Assembly: GCF_000423165.1 (NCBI RefSeq)
Contig: NZ_KE383983.1
Coordinates: 978,376-1,042,375 of the forward strand
Length of the DNA stretch: 64,000 bases
From: Pseudidiomarina sediminum DSM 21906
GTDB lineage: Bacteria > Pseudomonadota > Gammaproteobacteria > Enterobacterales > Alteromonadaceae
Reading direction: 5' to 3'
The notes below the pieces were generated by a model. The model made no database searches, was not told the origin of the DNA, and saw only the letters and a program-made list of their open reading frames with translations. Positions within the stretch are counted from its first letter, which is position 1; each line of letters begins with the position of its first letter. This document shows positions 11,059 through 15,060 of the stretch, one piece after another. The position numbers and the translations under genes were made by a program.

Positions 11059-12362
11059 TGATGATGATGCACAAAAAACTCTCAATGCTGATTAGCGCGA
11101 GTGTATTGTGTGGCGTTGTTGCGGTAGGTTCGCCTACCGCTATGGCGCAAGACATCAATTACAACTTGCCAAGTGCCGAGCAGGTACAGCAGCAGAAAGA
11201 TAGCCGCGGTAGTAAAGCTGTTTCTGAGCGTATTGGTCGCCGTATTATGGCCGCCTTCGACTTGTATACCGAAGAAGAAGACGTGAAAGGTGCAATCGCG
11301 ATTCTCGAAGATCTCGATCCGAGTGATTCGTTTGACCGCGCTTATGTCGATCGTTTTCTTGCAAACTTACTGACTGAAGATGAGCGTATTAATGACGCTC
11401 TCAAGCTAGCAAAACGTTCTGCAGATGCGAACGTACTTAGCTGGAATGACCAAGCTACGATTCTTCGTTTGTCGGCACAGTTAAGCCTTCAAGTTGAAGA
11501 TTATCGCGGTGCGCTTCAGTACTACGGTAAGTGGTTGCAATTCACTGGTGAAGCGAACCCAGATGTATTTTTGCGTATTGCCAACGCTTATTATGAGCTG
11601 AAGGAATATGACAAAGTCATCAAGCCAGCTGACCTTGCGATTGCAAACTACGAAGAGCCAAACAAAAACGCATATGTGATGAAAGTTGCCTCGTATTATG
11701 AGCGCAAAATGTATCAAGATGCGATTGATGTTTTGGAAGCCGGTCTTGAAGTATTACCTGGTGAAACCACATGGTGGAACCAATTGGGCATGATTTATAT
11801 GCTCGAAGAGGAGCTTGATAAAGCACTTCAAACCCTCGAAATTGCTTACTTAGCAGGCTATTTCGATAAGGAAAACCAGTTTAAAGCATTGGTACAACTG
11901 TATGCGAACAATGGTATTCCGTTTGATGCTGCTCGCCTGATGGTGAAGCACCTTGAGTCTGGTGATATCGAGAAGACGTCGCGCAACTATCGTAGCGCTG
12001 CATCTAACTTTGAAATGGCACGTGAGTATTCGCGTGCAGCTAAAATCTATGCTTTAGCTGCTGGCGTTGAAAGCGACAAAGATGATCGTGCTGATTTGTA
12101 TCGTAAGAAGGGAACTGCCCACTTACGTGCAGAAGAGTACGACGCTGCCACGGATGCGTATTTAAAAGCATTGGACGAAGGCTATGATGAGCCGGGTAGT
12201 ATTTACATGTCTTTGGCAGAAGCGTACTTCTACCAAAACAAGTTTAGCCAAGCGTTGAAATACGTAACTGAAGCGCAAAAATTCAATGATCAACGACGTA
12301 ATGCACGTAGCTGGGAATCTTACATTCGCAGCAAGGCGAGCAATCGCGGAGTTTCTTTGTAA
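11058..12362 (+). CDS. TPR-repeat protein of the TonB2 operon
   Basis: A 434-residue exported protein built of tetratricopeptide repeats after a signal peptide (about residues 1-31, ending PTAMAQD). Repeat-like helices are easily seen, for example DVFLRIANAYYELKEYDKVI, TTWWNQLGMIYMLEEELDKAL and GSIYMSLAEAYFYQNKFSQAL. Such proteins close TonB2-type operons and probably act in the periplasm as a scaffold. Four ATG codons run in tandem from 11058; AGGAG at 11051-11055 lies 2 bases before the first, so initiation at 11061 or 11064 is more likely. A strong terminator follows, marking the operon end. Confidence 0.85.
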   Translation: MMMMHKKLSMLISASVLCGVVAVGSPTAMAQDINYNLPSAEQVQQQKDSRGSKAVSERIGRRIMAAFDLYTEEEDVKGAIAILEDLDPSDSFDRAYVDRFLANLLTEDERINDALKLAKRSADANVLSWNDQATILRLSAQLSLQVEDYRGALQYYGKWLQFTGEANPDVFLRIANAYYELKEYDKVIKPADLAIANYEEPNKNAYVMKVASYYERKMYQDAIDVLEAGLEVLPGETTWWNQLGMIYMLEEELDKALQTLEIAYLAGYFDKENQFKALVQLYANNGIPFDAARLMVKHLESGDIEKTSRNYRSAASNFEMAREYSRAAKIYALAAGVESDKDDRADLYRKKGTAHLRAEEYDAATDAYLKALDEGYDEPGSIYMSLAEAYFYQNKFSQALKYVTEAQKFNDQRRNARSWESYIRSKASNRGVSL

Positions 12363-12390
12363 AAATTGCGTTTAACGTAAAAAAAGTTGT

Positions 12391-12423
12391 AAAGCCCCGC
12401 TATCAATGCGGGGCTTTTTTTTG
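12391..12423 (+). terminator. Rho-independent terminator of the TonB2 operon
   Basis: A 10-base-pair stem AAAGCCCCGC/GCGGGGCTTT (12391-12400 with 12409-12418) with an 8-base loop is followed by a run of T. It isolates the TonB2 operon from the hvfABC-type operon downstream. Confidence 0.9.
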
Positions 12424-12475
12424 TAAAAACGCTATAGTTAATGAATGTGTTTGACACAACAACGAGGAACTGAAC

Positions 12476-12910
12476 ATGAACAATGTGAAAAAAACCGTTA
12501 GCTTAACTGTAGGCGCGTTATTAGCGAGTGGCGTTGCTATGCAAGCTGCCGCCAATCCATTTAGCTATGCCGACCTAGGTTCTGGTTATCAGCAAGAGCA
12601 AAGCAAAGATCGTGAAGCCAAGTGTGGTGAAGGCAAGTGCGGTGAACACATGCACGGCGATAAAGTGAAAGAAAAGGCCAAAGAAGGCAAATGTGGCGAA
12701 GGCAAGTGCGGAGAGCACATGCACAGCGACAAGATGAAGGAAAAGGCGAAAGAAGGTAAGTGTGGCGAGGGCAAATGCGGTGAAGGCAAATGCGGCGAGT
12801 CGCACGGTGATAAAGTAAAAGCTGAAGCCAAAGCTAAAGCGAAAGAAAAAGCGAGCGAAGGTAAGTGTGGCGAAGGCAAATGTGGTGAAGGGAAGTGCGG
12901 CGGACAGTAG
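12476..12910 (+). CDS. hvfA: HvfA-type RiPP metallophore precursor with EGKCG repeats
   Basis: A 144-residue Cys-rich peptide. Residues 1-27 are a signal peptide, so the product is exported. The mature part has ten Cys (50, 55, 73, 78, 96, 101, 106, 131, 136, 141), nine in EGKCG and one in EAKCG, grouped 2, 2, 3 and 3. The first three spacers carry His (EHMHGDK, EHMHSDK, ESHGDK); a Lys/Ala/Glu-rich segment separates the last block. In the HvfA family of Haemophilus, EGKCG Cys residues are converted to oxazolone/thioamide pairs that bind Cu(I). The DUF692 and DUF2063 genes that perform this follow directly and overlap. GAGGAA lies before the ATG. The family is clear; copper binding here is inferred from the family. 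Confidence 0.88.
   Translation: MNNVKKTVSLTVGALLASGVAMQAAANPFSYADLGSGYQQEQSKDREAKCGEGKCGEHMHGDKVKEKAKEGKCGEGKCGEHMHSDKMKEKAKEGKCGEGKCGEGKCGESHGDKVKAEAKAKAKEKASEGKCGEGKCGEGKCGGQ
12624..12905 (+). repeat. Internal tandem repeats of hvfA
   Basis: The coding DNA repeats a 15-base GAAGGCAAATGTGGC-like unit nine or ten times in four clusters. Larger units are also repeated: EGKCGEGKCGEHMH followed by a Lys-rich helix occurs twice in tandem (about 12624-12747). Codon use differs among copies (TGT/TGC, GGC/GGT, AAG/AAA), so the repeats are old enough to have drifted while the peptide stayed constant. This indicates selection on the protein sequence. Confidence 0.85.
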
Positions 12911-13737
12911 GACTCGGACTGCGTCGTGAGTTTCTAACAGACGTCTTGGCAGCACCAGCGGAAGTTGGGTTTTGGGAACTTGCTCCTGAAAACTGGTTTC
13001 CGCGCGGTGCCAAAGCCTATCGCCAGTTAGATCAACTGCGCGAACAAACACCACTCACCAGTCATGGGCTCTCACTCTCTATTGGGAGCCCTGACCCTTT
13101 AGACATTGCCTTCGTGCGGCAAGTGAAAGCTTTCTTAGATCGCTTTGATATCGCGGTGTACAGTGAGCATTTGAGTTACTGCTCAGCCGGTGGACACTTG
13201 TATGATTTATTGCCCATGCCCTTTACCAAAGAAGCTGCAGACTATGTCGCCGAGCGAGTAAAGCTGGTGCAGGATATTATCGAGCGCCCGTTGGTATTAG
13301 AAAACGTCTCTTATTACGCCAGCTTTGCGACCGAATTAAGTGAGTTAGAGTTCATTTGTACGGTAGTAGAAGAAGCTGACTGTAAGCTCTTGCTCGACGT
13401 CAATAATGTGTTCGTGAATAGCGTCAACCATAACTACGACCCTTACGCGTTTATTGACGCTTTGCCGAGTGAGCGCATTGTATACGGCCATATTGCCGGA
13501 CATACTGAAGAAGCGCCTGACTTATTTGTCGATACTCACGGTGCCGACGTTAAGCCGCAGGTTTGGCAACTGCTAGAACATGCGTATCGTCGTCACGGTA
13601 TTTTTCCAACGGTTTTAGAGCGGGACTTTAATATCCCGCCACTCACAGACTTATTAAGTGAAATGGCGCATATTGACGATTCACAACAACGGGTTGAACG
13701 CTGCAGTGACGCAAGACTTCAAACAACTTCAGCATAA
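12895..13737 (+). CDS. hvfB: HvfB, DUF692 multinuclear non-heme iron oxidase (MNIO)
   Basis: A 280-residue TIM-barrel enzyme of the DUF692/MNIO family. Conserved metal-ligand segments are present: His57, SEHL (90-93), LENVSYY (Glu136), LLDVNNV (Asp168), GHIAGH (His199, His203), DTHG (Asp213, His215) and ERDFN (Glu242). MNIO enzymes hold two or three irons and oxidise Cys residues of precursor peptides; the HvfB branch installs oxazolone/thioamide groups. Translation starts at GTG 12895, overlapping the hvfA stop by 16 bases, with GAAGGGAAG as ribosome site. The overlap couples enzyme to substrate. The enzyme is expected to act on HvfA in the cytoplasm before export. Confidence 0.9.
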   Translation: MRRTVGLGLRREFLTDVLAAPAEVGFWELAPENWFPRGAKAYRQLDQLREQTPLTSHGLSLSIGSPDPLDIAFVRQVKAFLDRFDIAVYSEHLSYCSAGGHLYDLLPMPFTKEAADYVAERVKLVQDIIERPLVLENVSYYASFATELSELEFICTVVEEADCKLLLDVNNVFVNSVNHNYDPYAFIDALPSERIVYGHIAGHTEEAPDLFVDTHGADVKPQVWQLLEHAYRRHGIFPTVLERDFNIPPLTDLLSEMAHIDDSQQRVERCSDARLQTTSA

Positions 13738-14449
13738 ATTCGCCAATTGGCTCCGCGCCGCAGAAGCTGGCGACGATTTCCCCGCTATCGAGGCACGTCG
13801 TTTGGCGGTGTATCGGCGTTTGGTACACAACAATATCCGTCAGTTTCTCGATAACGGTTTCCCGGTACTGCGCAAGGTCCTTTCGGATCGCGAATGGCGT
13901 GCTCTCGTTGAGGGGTTTATCGCGCAACATCGGGCAGCCTCGCCATTATTTTCCGATATTGGCCAAGAGTTTGTCGATTACTTGGCGCAATTGGACTTGG
14001 CAACCACTGGCGTGCCGGTATGGACATTTGAGCTTGCCCATTACGAGCGACTTGAGGTTGACGTGCAATTCGCGAATCCACCTGATGTGTTAGCTGCGCA
14101 AACGCTGGAGGAGGCAACCCTATTACGCTTAAACCCAAGTGCGCGCATCGCTTGCTATCAGTACGCAGTGGCTGAAATTTCAGCCGAACACTTACCCACA
14201 GACCCAGAGCCGCAACCTTACTGTGTTGTGGTCTATCAGACCGCGCAAGGGCAGGTACGGTTTTTGCAACTTAACCCAATGACCGCCTTTGTCTTGGAGC
14301 TACTCCAACAACAACCGACCAGTTTAGTGCAACTGTGTGACACCTTAATGGCACAGTTGCCAGGTTATACCGCTGACCAATTAAAAACCGCCTTGACTCA
14401 ATTGCTTGAAGATTTTGCTGCGCGTGGTGTGTTGTCCACAACCGCGTAA
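13706..14449 (+). CDS. hvfC: HvfC, DUF2063 partner protein of the MNIO
   Basis: A protein of about 248 residues with the N-terminal DUF2063 helical domain (QLQHKFANWLR, then RRLAVYRRLVHNNIRQFLDNGFPVLR) and a C-terminal domain of mixed fold (about 160-248) resembling a winged-helix-like peptide-binding module. In MNIO systems this partner recognises the precursor peptide and is needed for enzyme activity. The start is uncertain: GTG at 13706 or TTG at 13694 are plausible, both inside the end of hvfB, with no strong ribosome site, so coupling with hvfB translation is likely. No DoxX-like hvfD gene follows, unlike some relatives. Confidence 0.85.
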   Translation: MTQDFKQLQHKFANWLRAAEAGDDFPAIEARRLAVYRRLVHNNIRQFLDNGFPVLRKVLSDREWRALVEGFIAQHRAASPLFSDIGQEFVDYLAQLDLATTGVPVWTFELAHYERLEVDVQFANPPDVLAAQTLEEATLLRLNPSARIACYQYAVAEISAEHLPTDPEPQPYCVVVYQTAQGQVRFLQLNPMTAFVLELLQQQPTSLVQLCDTLMAQLPGYTADQLKTALTQLLEDFAARGVLSTTA

Positions 14450-14502
14450 TCGAGTATGATCCGCCCCGCAAAATAATAGCTGCAGTTATGAGGACCTCCC
14501 AT

Positions 14503-14634
14503 ATGGCTAACAAAACCGAACGTTATTACGACTCATCGAGTAAACCTTGGATTGGCGTGCTTGCGGTATTAGTAGTAGTTGCCGTGCCATGTCTACCAGC
14601 GATTTTACAGTGGGCGAAACACCTTACGGCGTAA
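14503..14634 (+). CDS. Small membrane protein, 43 residues, function unknown
   Basis: A short gene starting at an ATG preceded by GAGGAC at 9-base spacing. The product has a polar N-terminus (about residues 1-14, with ERYYDSSSKP) and one hydrophobic helix (about residues 16-35, IGVLAVLVVVAVPCL), ending in a short basic tail. It therefore looks like a single-pass inner-membrane miniprotein. It lies 53 bases after hvfC and 27 bases before the response-regulator gene, on the same strand. I do not recognise the family. The ribosome site, the helix and the absence of any alternative gene here support it being real. It may belong to the hvf operon or to the following one. Confidence 0.6.
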   Translation: MANKTERYYDSSSKPWIGVLAVLVVVAVPCLPAILQWAKHLTA

Positions 14635-14661
14635 CCCCCACGTAACCAATTAAGGCAACCT

Positions 14662-15060
14662 ATGTCTCGCAAACTTTTGTTGGTTGAGGATAAACCAACG
14701 ACGCGTGCAGCATTACTTGAGATGCTCGCGCATACACCTTTTGTCGTTGATTGTGCCAATGATGGCCTTGAAGGGTTGAATAAAGCGAAGGCAGAACACT
14801 ACGACGTGGTTCTTGCCGATCATAAAATGCCTTTAATGGATGGCATTAACTTATTGCGGAATTTGCGAGCATTGGAAAGCTATGCGCAAACGCCGTTGTT
14901 GTTAATGTCGACCCAAGATCTCAAGCAAGTCGAAGAGAGCGCAACCCGTTCTGGAGCCGACTTGTGCTTACCTAAGCCGATTGATCAACAGCGTCTACTG
15001 GAGTTGTTGGCAGATCTCTGGCAAACCATGCAAACACCATTGCGCCCTGAGATTTCATGA
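14662..15060 (+). CDS. Single-domain response regulator (CheY-like receiver)
   Basis: A 132-residue receiver domain without an output domain. The phosphorylation site is Asp53 in VVLADHKMP, with the acidic pair near residues 10-11 (VEDKP), Ser83 and Lys105 in LPKP as the other conserved active-site residues. One of the usual acidic pocket residues appears replaced by Lys11, which is uncommon. No histidine kinase is adjacent, so its partner is unknown; chemotaxis, motility or a stress relay are possible. TAAGG precedes the ATG. Its stop overlaps the apt start by 4 bases (ATGA). Confidence 0.85.
   Translation: MSRKLLLVEDKPTTRAALLEMLAHTPFVVDCANDGLEGLNKAKAEHYDVVLADHKMPLMDGINLLRNLRALESYAQTPLLLMSTQDLKQVEESATRSGADLCLPKPIDQQRLLELLADLWQTMQTPLRPEIS

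Follow-up and report, generated by a model that had tools for sequence, protein, structure and literature searches.

A putative EGKCG metallophore cluster of the copper-binding thiooxazole family in the marine genus Pseudidiomarina

A 64,000-nucleotide stretch of the 2.6 Mb genome of Pseudidiomarina sediminum DSM 21906 (hereafter the window) encodes a cysteine-repeat peptide followed by two genes for putative maturation proteins, and this locus raises the question of what is made from the peptide and which metal the product serves. The evidence presented here, which covers the genes present, the families they belong to, active-site residues, conservation and location, points very probably to a three-gene captophorin (oxazolin/Buf_EGKCG) cluster whose product would be a Sec-exported thiooxazole peptide that binds copper in the periplasm. 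The cluster is thus a well-supported further member of a published family (Buf_EGKCG/oxazolin, also called captophorin); no paper on it in Pseudidiomarina was found among the literature matches listed.

Precursor and maturation genes

The first gene (12476-12910, plus strand, as are all features described below) encodes a peptide of 144 amino acids with ten cysteines, all within motifs, one EAKCG (residues 47-51) and nine EGKCG. A Sec-type signal peptide is clear by eye at residues 1-26 (12476-12553), with cleavage after AAA also judged by eye, and is followed by the stretch NPFSYADLGSGYQ (12554-12592). The motifs form blocks of 2, 2, 3 and 3: EAKCG EGKCG in block 1 (12614-12643), EGKCG twice in block 2 (12683-12712), and EGKCG three times in each of blocks 3 (12752-12796) and 4 (12857-12901). 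Between them lie three spacers (EHMHGDKVKEKAK, EHMHSDKMKEKAK and ESHGDKVKAEAKAKAKEKAS), the first two with EHMH (12644-12682 and 12713-12751) and the third with ESH (12797-12856). Translation of the open reading frame confirmed the peptide that the original prediction had described, with its motif numbers and blocks. The precursor scored 60.2 bits against NF050137, the NCBIfam repeat model of HvfA-family metallophores (cut-off 19.5), and missed the strict HvfA equivalog model NF050188 (52.7 bits versus a cut-off of 95); judged by its sequence, it is an HvfA-family relative outside NCBI's strict sense of HvfA. An AlphaFold2 model of the mature precursor (11 rows) had a mean pLDDT of 41.6 and gave no usable fold.

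The second gene (12895-13737) encodes an MNIO maturase of the HvfB/FonB type. It scored 409.1 bits against NF003818 ("HvfB family MNIO-type RiPP peptide maturase"; cut-off 360) and 343 bits against PF05114, and its nearest solved structure is 3BWW (242 bits). The third gene (13706-14449) encodes the DUF2063/RRE partner HvfC, of the PME1 type, with 249.7 bits against NF050145 (cut-off 142), Pfam matches to PF09836, PF22106 and PF05402, and a 72-bit match to 3DEE. Both structures come from clusters of this kind according to PMC13097082, which names 3BWW as an MNIO and 3DEE as a PME1. The frame of hvfC closes at 14449 and is also open from GTG 13658, its listed start; GTG 13706 is probably the real start, because the 3DEE match begins at residue 6 from there. 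None of the three frames is interrupted in the window. A DUF692 MNIO and a DUF2063 partner had been proposed to follow the precursor with a 16-base overlap, and both the overlap (12895-12910) and the two family assignments were found as proposed. With family models over their cut-offs and the same gene order in relatives, the assignments of precursor, HvfB and HvfC are beyond chance.

Placement of the MNIO and conservation of the locus

We aligned 106 MNIO sequences: 23 from the genus (window included), 9 from other named genomes, 53 from the order level, 20 of the bufferin type, and 3BWW. The order-level rows came from loci with EGKCG precursors. Duplicates and sequences shorter than 225 aa were left out of the alignment. 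A search of 59 genomes supplied the loci behind the 20 bufferin-type rows, with L151 below the BufB cut-off and L150 just on it. An Arg-Arg and an Asp-Phe pair of the MNIO have been tied to Lys-Cys substrates (PMC13097082), and the window MNIO carries both, R10 and R11 in an LRR stretch, and D244 and F245, with the Phe directly after the catalytic Asp. The second Arg is present in 23/23 genus rows, 53/53 order-level rows, 8 of the 9 other rows and 3BWW, and in 0/20 bufferin-type rows. The Phe has the same distribution outside the bufferin type (23/23, 53/53, 8/9 and 3BWW) and occurs in none of the 15 out of 20 bufferin-type rows visible at that position, where the five commonest residues per column were tallied. 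HvfB needs N175, D242 and H244 for activity (PMC13419390); their equivalents in the window MNIO, mapped through 3BWW, are N170, D213 and H215, and every one of the 85 rows from the genus, the order level and the other genomes keeps them.

In the tree, 85 rows including those of the window and 3BWW grouped together at 100/98, and the 20 bufferin-type rows stood apart at 95/77, the second value falling short of the 80 that the program sets as its mark. Several branches are long (L073, L070, L141 and others), L073 lies outside both sides, and the program cautions that long branches may be joined falsely. BufB membership of the window MNIO was rejected on its score (279.8 bits versus a cut-off of 310), its residues and its position on the opposite side of the tree. 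The MNIO thus groups with 3BWW and EGKCG-linked enzymes and not with bufferin maturases, so that it does not fall outside the HvfB branch. Taken together, the family models, the MNIO residues and the tree bear out an hvfABC-type operon. One genus MNIO match (L023, G005:C1:1343612-1344433) has one TAA inside it and a long branch, and is possibly a decaying copy.

An MNIO match was found in 23 of the 26 genus genomes. The order tonB, TPR, precursor, hvfB, hvfC, response regulator and apt is shared by nine named Pseudidiomarina loci (L054-L060, L063 and L072); in L062 this order is kept but the precursor is missing, and L061 is a short contig. In the window, hvfC is followed by a 43-aa open reading frame, a response regulator and a gene that we take to be apt, with no DoxX-like gene in the operon. 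An apt-like gene likewise follows hvfC in the Alteromonadaceae loci L064 and L065. Three genus genomes of 2.1-2.2 Mb (G009, G010 and G023; loci L152, L153 and L156) have no hvfABC between the TPR gene and the 43-aa frame: TPR gene, 43-aa frame, response regulator and apt are consecutive in G009 and G010, with no MNIO or partner match between them, and TPR gene, 43-aa frame and response regulator are consecutive in G023, where no apt was found. Loss of hvfABC in these three genomes is the simpler reading, because the Alteromonadaceae share the apt side.

The 43-aa frame (14503-14634) has a hydrophobic middle and no Pfam or NCBIfam match, and tblastn found it in 5 of 10 long genus loci. It was rejected as a fourth operon member, since a relative sits between the TPR gene and the response regulator where hvfABC is absent. 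Ahead of the operon, a scan placed a terminator-like hairpin after the upstream TPR gene (12391-12417); the scan gave 2 sites versus a shuffle mean of 3.5 and so is no evidence by itself, and the GC arms of the hairpin are conserved across an alignment of 9 stretches that includes the window. A -10-like element, GCTATAGTT (12431-12439), whose GCTATA is invariant in 9/9 aligned stretches (window included), may belong to the operon promoter. A sigma-70 scan of 12300-14700 gave no site upstream of the precursor, with 3 hits versus a shuffle mean of 2.4. No copper-responsive site was recognised upstream by the sigma-70 scan and the alignment, and we claim no copper or iron box.

Repeats, spacers and the gene overlap in relatives

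We compared 21 genus precursors with 65 others. Among the 23 genus loci with an MNIO, the precursor is cut by the contig end in L010 and L014 and none adjoins in L015, which leaves 20 linked precursors, to which the unlinked L042 was added. The others comprise 58 order-level loci (57 genomes, G084 twice) and 7 further loci; the order-level loci came from 80 genomes with a match among 295 searched. A PF-x-L-x-GY-type stretch (NPFxxxxLxxGYQ-like) after the signal peptide, to which NPFSYADLGSGYQ corresponds in the window, is present in 21/21 genus and 56/65 other precursors (77/86). It is missing in L111, L123, L130 and six f8 (H. somni-like) precursors with MNIOs that cluster beside 3BWW of H. 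somni. HvfBC prefers HvfA bearing its signal sequence (PMC13419390), and the NPF stretch may add to recognition of the precursor here.

Counted as KCG or RCG, the genus precursors hold 6 to 10 motifs, with ten in 7 of 21. The 65 others hold 4 to 16, with at least 10 in 37, in a sample that leans to strong EGKCG repeats because the order-level loci were taken from the best listed matches. The Buf_EGKCG/oxazolin family is described as about 2,000 proteins of 31-506 aa with up to 58 Cys (PMC12452194). Ten sites are therefore not unusual in the family. The original prediction had foreseen a high-capacity, modular peptide if all ten Cys are modified, with more sites than HvfA; ten sites in blocks of 2, 2, 3 and 3 are indeed present, but the claim was overstated, given such site numbers in the family and a 2, 3, 2 grouping in fontiphorin.

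Histidines make up 5 of the 46 spacer residues in the window, and the EHMH and ESH motifs had been suggested as additional His/Met copper ligands. The motifs are real, but the ligand role found little support, since spacer His varies between species. It is decidedly unlikely that the His-Met spacers supply extra copper ligands and so create mixed thiooxazole/imidazole sites unlike those of plain EGKCG peptides. What speaks for such ligands is that spacer His occurs in 19/21 genus versus 12/65 other precursors (5.5% versus 1.3% of spacer residues) and HxH in 5/21 versus 1/65 (4/20 in the genus without the window), and that genus HxH is commoner than in shuffled spacers (6 versus 1.7 on average; p 0.004 when HxH are counted and 0.011 when precursors are, or 0.039 and 0.031 without the window), in a shuffle that ignores the relatedness of the species and counts few events. 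In addition, CAC ATG CAC is identical between repeat units 1 and 2 of the window (23 codons), which differ by 8 silent and 3 meaning-changing substitutions; selection keeping the repeat unit is plausible, and a sample of this size says little on His alone. Against this, a single event probably explains EHAH in three closely related species, and the two EHMH belong to copies of the same unit; the window alone gives p 0.34 for presence and 0.04 for count, and HxH in the 65 others is at chance level (p 0.75). EHMH and HMH occur in 0/85 other precursors (20 genus and 65 others), relatives carry HxH at other places, 16 of the 20 remaining genus precursors lack it, and L020 and L042 are without His. 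No report of spacer His as ligands was found among the literature matches listed, and PMC12452194 gave no hit for "histidine". With a survey and shuffle signal that is weak and bound to one clade, conserved spacer ligands were not accepted; the likeliest role of the spacers is that of charged, flexible linkers. In the EGKCG precursor of a proteobacterial MAG (L066:843-1238), the spacers are Asp-rich (EDKDKDGEDKDG) and might bind calcium.

The overlap of precursor and MNIO is a small new detail of the genus. As Lys-Cys is encoded by AAR-TGY, each motif holds a GTG or ATG one step out of frame, and the window MNIO is open from the GTG at 12895, inside the last Lys-Cys codons of block 4 (12895-12901). 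A candidate MNIO start lies at this place in 18 of the 21 genus loci in which both genes adjoin, five of which (L013, L014, L017, L021 and L022) have further start candidates upstream; in the remaining three (L003, L006 and L007), the MNIO has an ATG just past the precursor stop. Only 2 of 60 other loci with both genes (L097 and L117) have any start candidate before the stop, each with later alternatives. The first residues of the genus MNIOs are thus probably overprinted on the last repeat of their substrate, an arrangement that suggests translational coupling.

Predicted product, related systems and rival readings

The modification expected by the original prediction, an oxazolone/thioamide pair at each Cys, is outdated. 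The authors of PMC13419390 report that they and others have reassigned oxazolin to 5-thiooxazole. For fontiphorin, oxazolin and gonophorin, this group was demonstrated by HMBC after alkylation of the peptides (PMC13097082). Both structures correspond to -4 Da, so that a mass test alone cannot separate them. Modification, recognition, export and copper binding in Pseudidiomarina may follow those of the studied relatives. The precursor would be made with its signal peptide on; HvfC would help to bind its N-terminal part, comprising the signal peptide and possibly the NPFxxxxLxxGYQ stretch; the MNIO, which depends on iron, would oxidise up to ten Lys-Cys-Gly sites to 5-thiooxazoles, with four hydrogens lost at each; and the modified peptide would be exported by Sec and bind periplasmic copper, thereby buffering an excess.

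Among known systems, fontiphorin (FonABC, Fontimonas thermophila) shares with the window a minimal three-gene cluster, a PME1 partner, an MNIO with Arg-Arg and Asp-Phe, and sites in small groups (2, 3, 2), the first of which is EAKCGEGKCG; compared by site number and grouping, FonA has seven sites versus ten in the window (PMC13097082). Oxazolin (HvfABC, nontypeable Haemophilus influenzae) is like the window in its EGKCG repeats, MNIO and RRE partner, and probably in its Sec signal, whereas it has six sites as three AEGKCGEGKCG and its operon includes the DoxX-like HvfX (PMC13419390). The wider Buf_EGKCG/oxazolin family likewise combines repeated EGKCG with MNIO and DUF2063 neighbours, and its Sec signal probably has a counterpart in the window; the first repeat units of the window are 23 residues long versus 17 in the type modelled as a beta-helix (PMC12452194). 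The bulbicupramide precursor MmrA also comes from a marine genus, Microbulbifer, with a conserved N-terminal leader and a varying number of EGKCG cysteines (five to eight, the one studied having three cassettes of two), and its product is copper-chelating (PMC12538549). The bufferins Buf1 and Buf2 (DUF2282 and 6/12-Cys; PMC12452194) share the MNIO and DUF2063 partner, and probably the Sec signal and copper, but their precursors belong to other families, and the window MNIO is separated from theirs by cut-off and tree.

Several points weigh against the preferred reading: the missed strict HvfA model, the lack of a DoxX gene beside hvfC, unlike in hvf, and the negative outcome for copper-responsive sites in the upstream sigma-70 scan and alignment; the fon cluster is likewise described without a DoxX gene (PMC13097082). 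Copper protection is itself unsettled in relatives, as PMC12538549 is reluctant to credit the Microbulbifer cluster with it. A product that handles zinc, gold, iron or oxidative stress instead of copper is nevertheless unlikely. It would fit one genome (G015), in which the precursor gene stops 5 bases short of a Cation_efflux/ZT_dimer gene that runs in the same direction (L042:557-1911, G015:C5, about 30 kb). No other EGKCG precursor was matched in this genome, and hvfBC sits without a precursor at the usual locus (L062/L157), near the opposite end of the contig. For the wider family, operons induced by gold and links to further metals are also named (PMC12452194). However, the cation-efflux neighbour occurs in that genome only, the precursor lies between the TPR gene and hvfB in nine named genus loci, and the studied relatives bind copper, as reported for fontiphorin and gonophorin (PMC13097082). 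It is very unlikely that a branch of Pseudidiomarina has gained HxH pairs (EHMH, EHAH, EHEH) in its linkers and with them a two-chemistry metallophore, in which a single exported chain would bind Cu(I) at soft thiooxazole sites and Cu(II) or zinc at paired imidazoles; the cation-efflux neighbour in one species would be a further hint of a wider metal range.

That the cluster has decayed, leaving plain Cys/Lys-rich repeats on which the enzymes no longer act, is extremely improbable. The stop inside the G005 match would agree with decay, as would the 3 of 26 genus genomes with no MNIO match, which show that the system is dispensable. In the window, however, the three frames are open, the catalytic residues looked at are kept, and most of the differences between the two repeat units are silent (8 to 3).

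The preferred reading, a cluster for an exported thiooxazole peptide that binds copper, adds a well-conserved EGKCG metallophore member from a marine genus, with its expected chemistry corrected to 5-thiooxazole. Since site number and spacers vary between close species and the enzymes, the NPF...GY stretch and the location are fixed, the genus offers a natural series for relating copper binding to site number and linkers.
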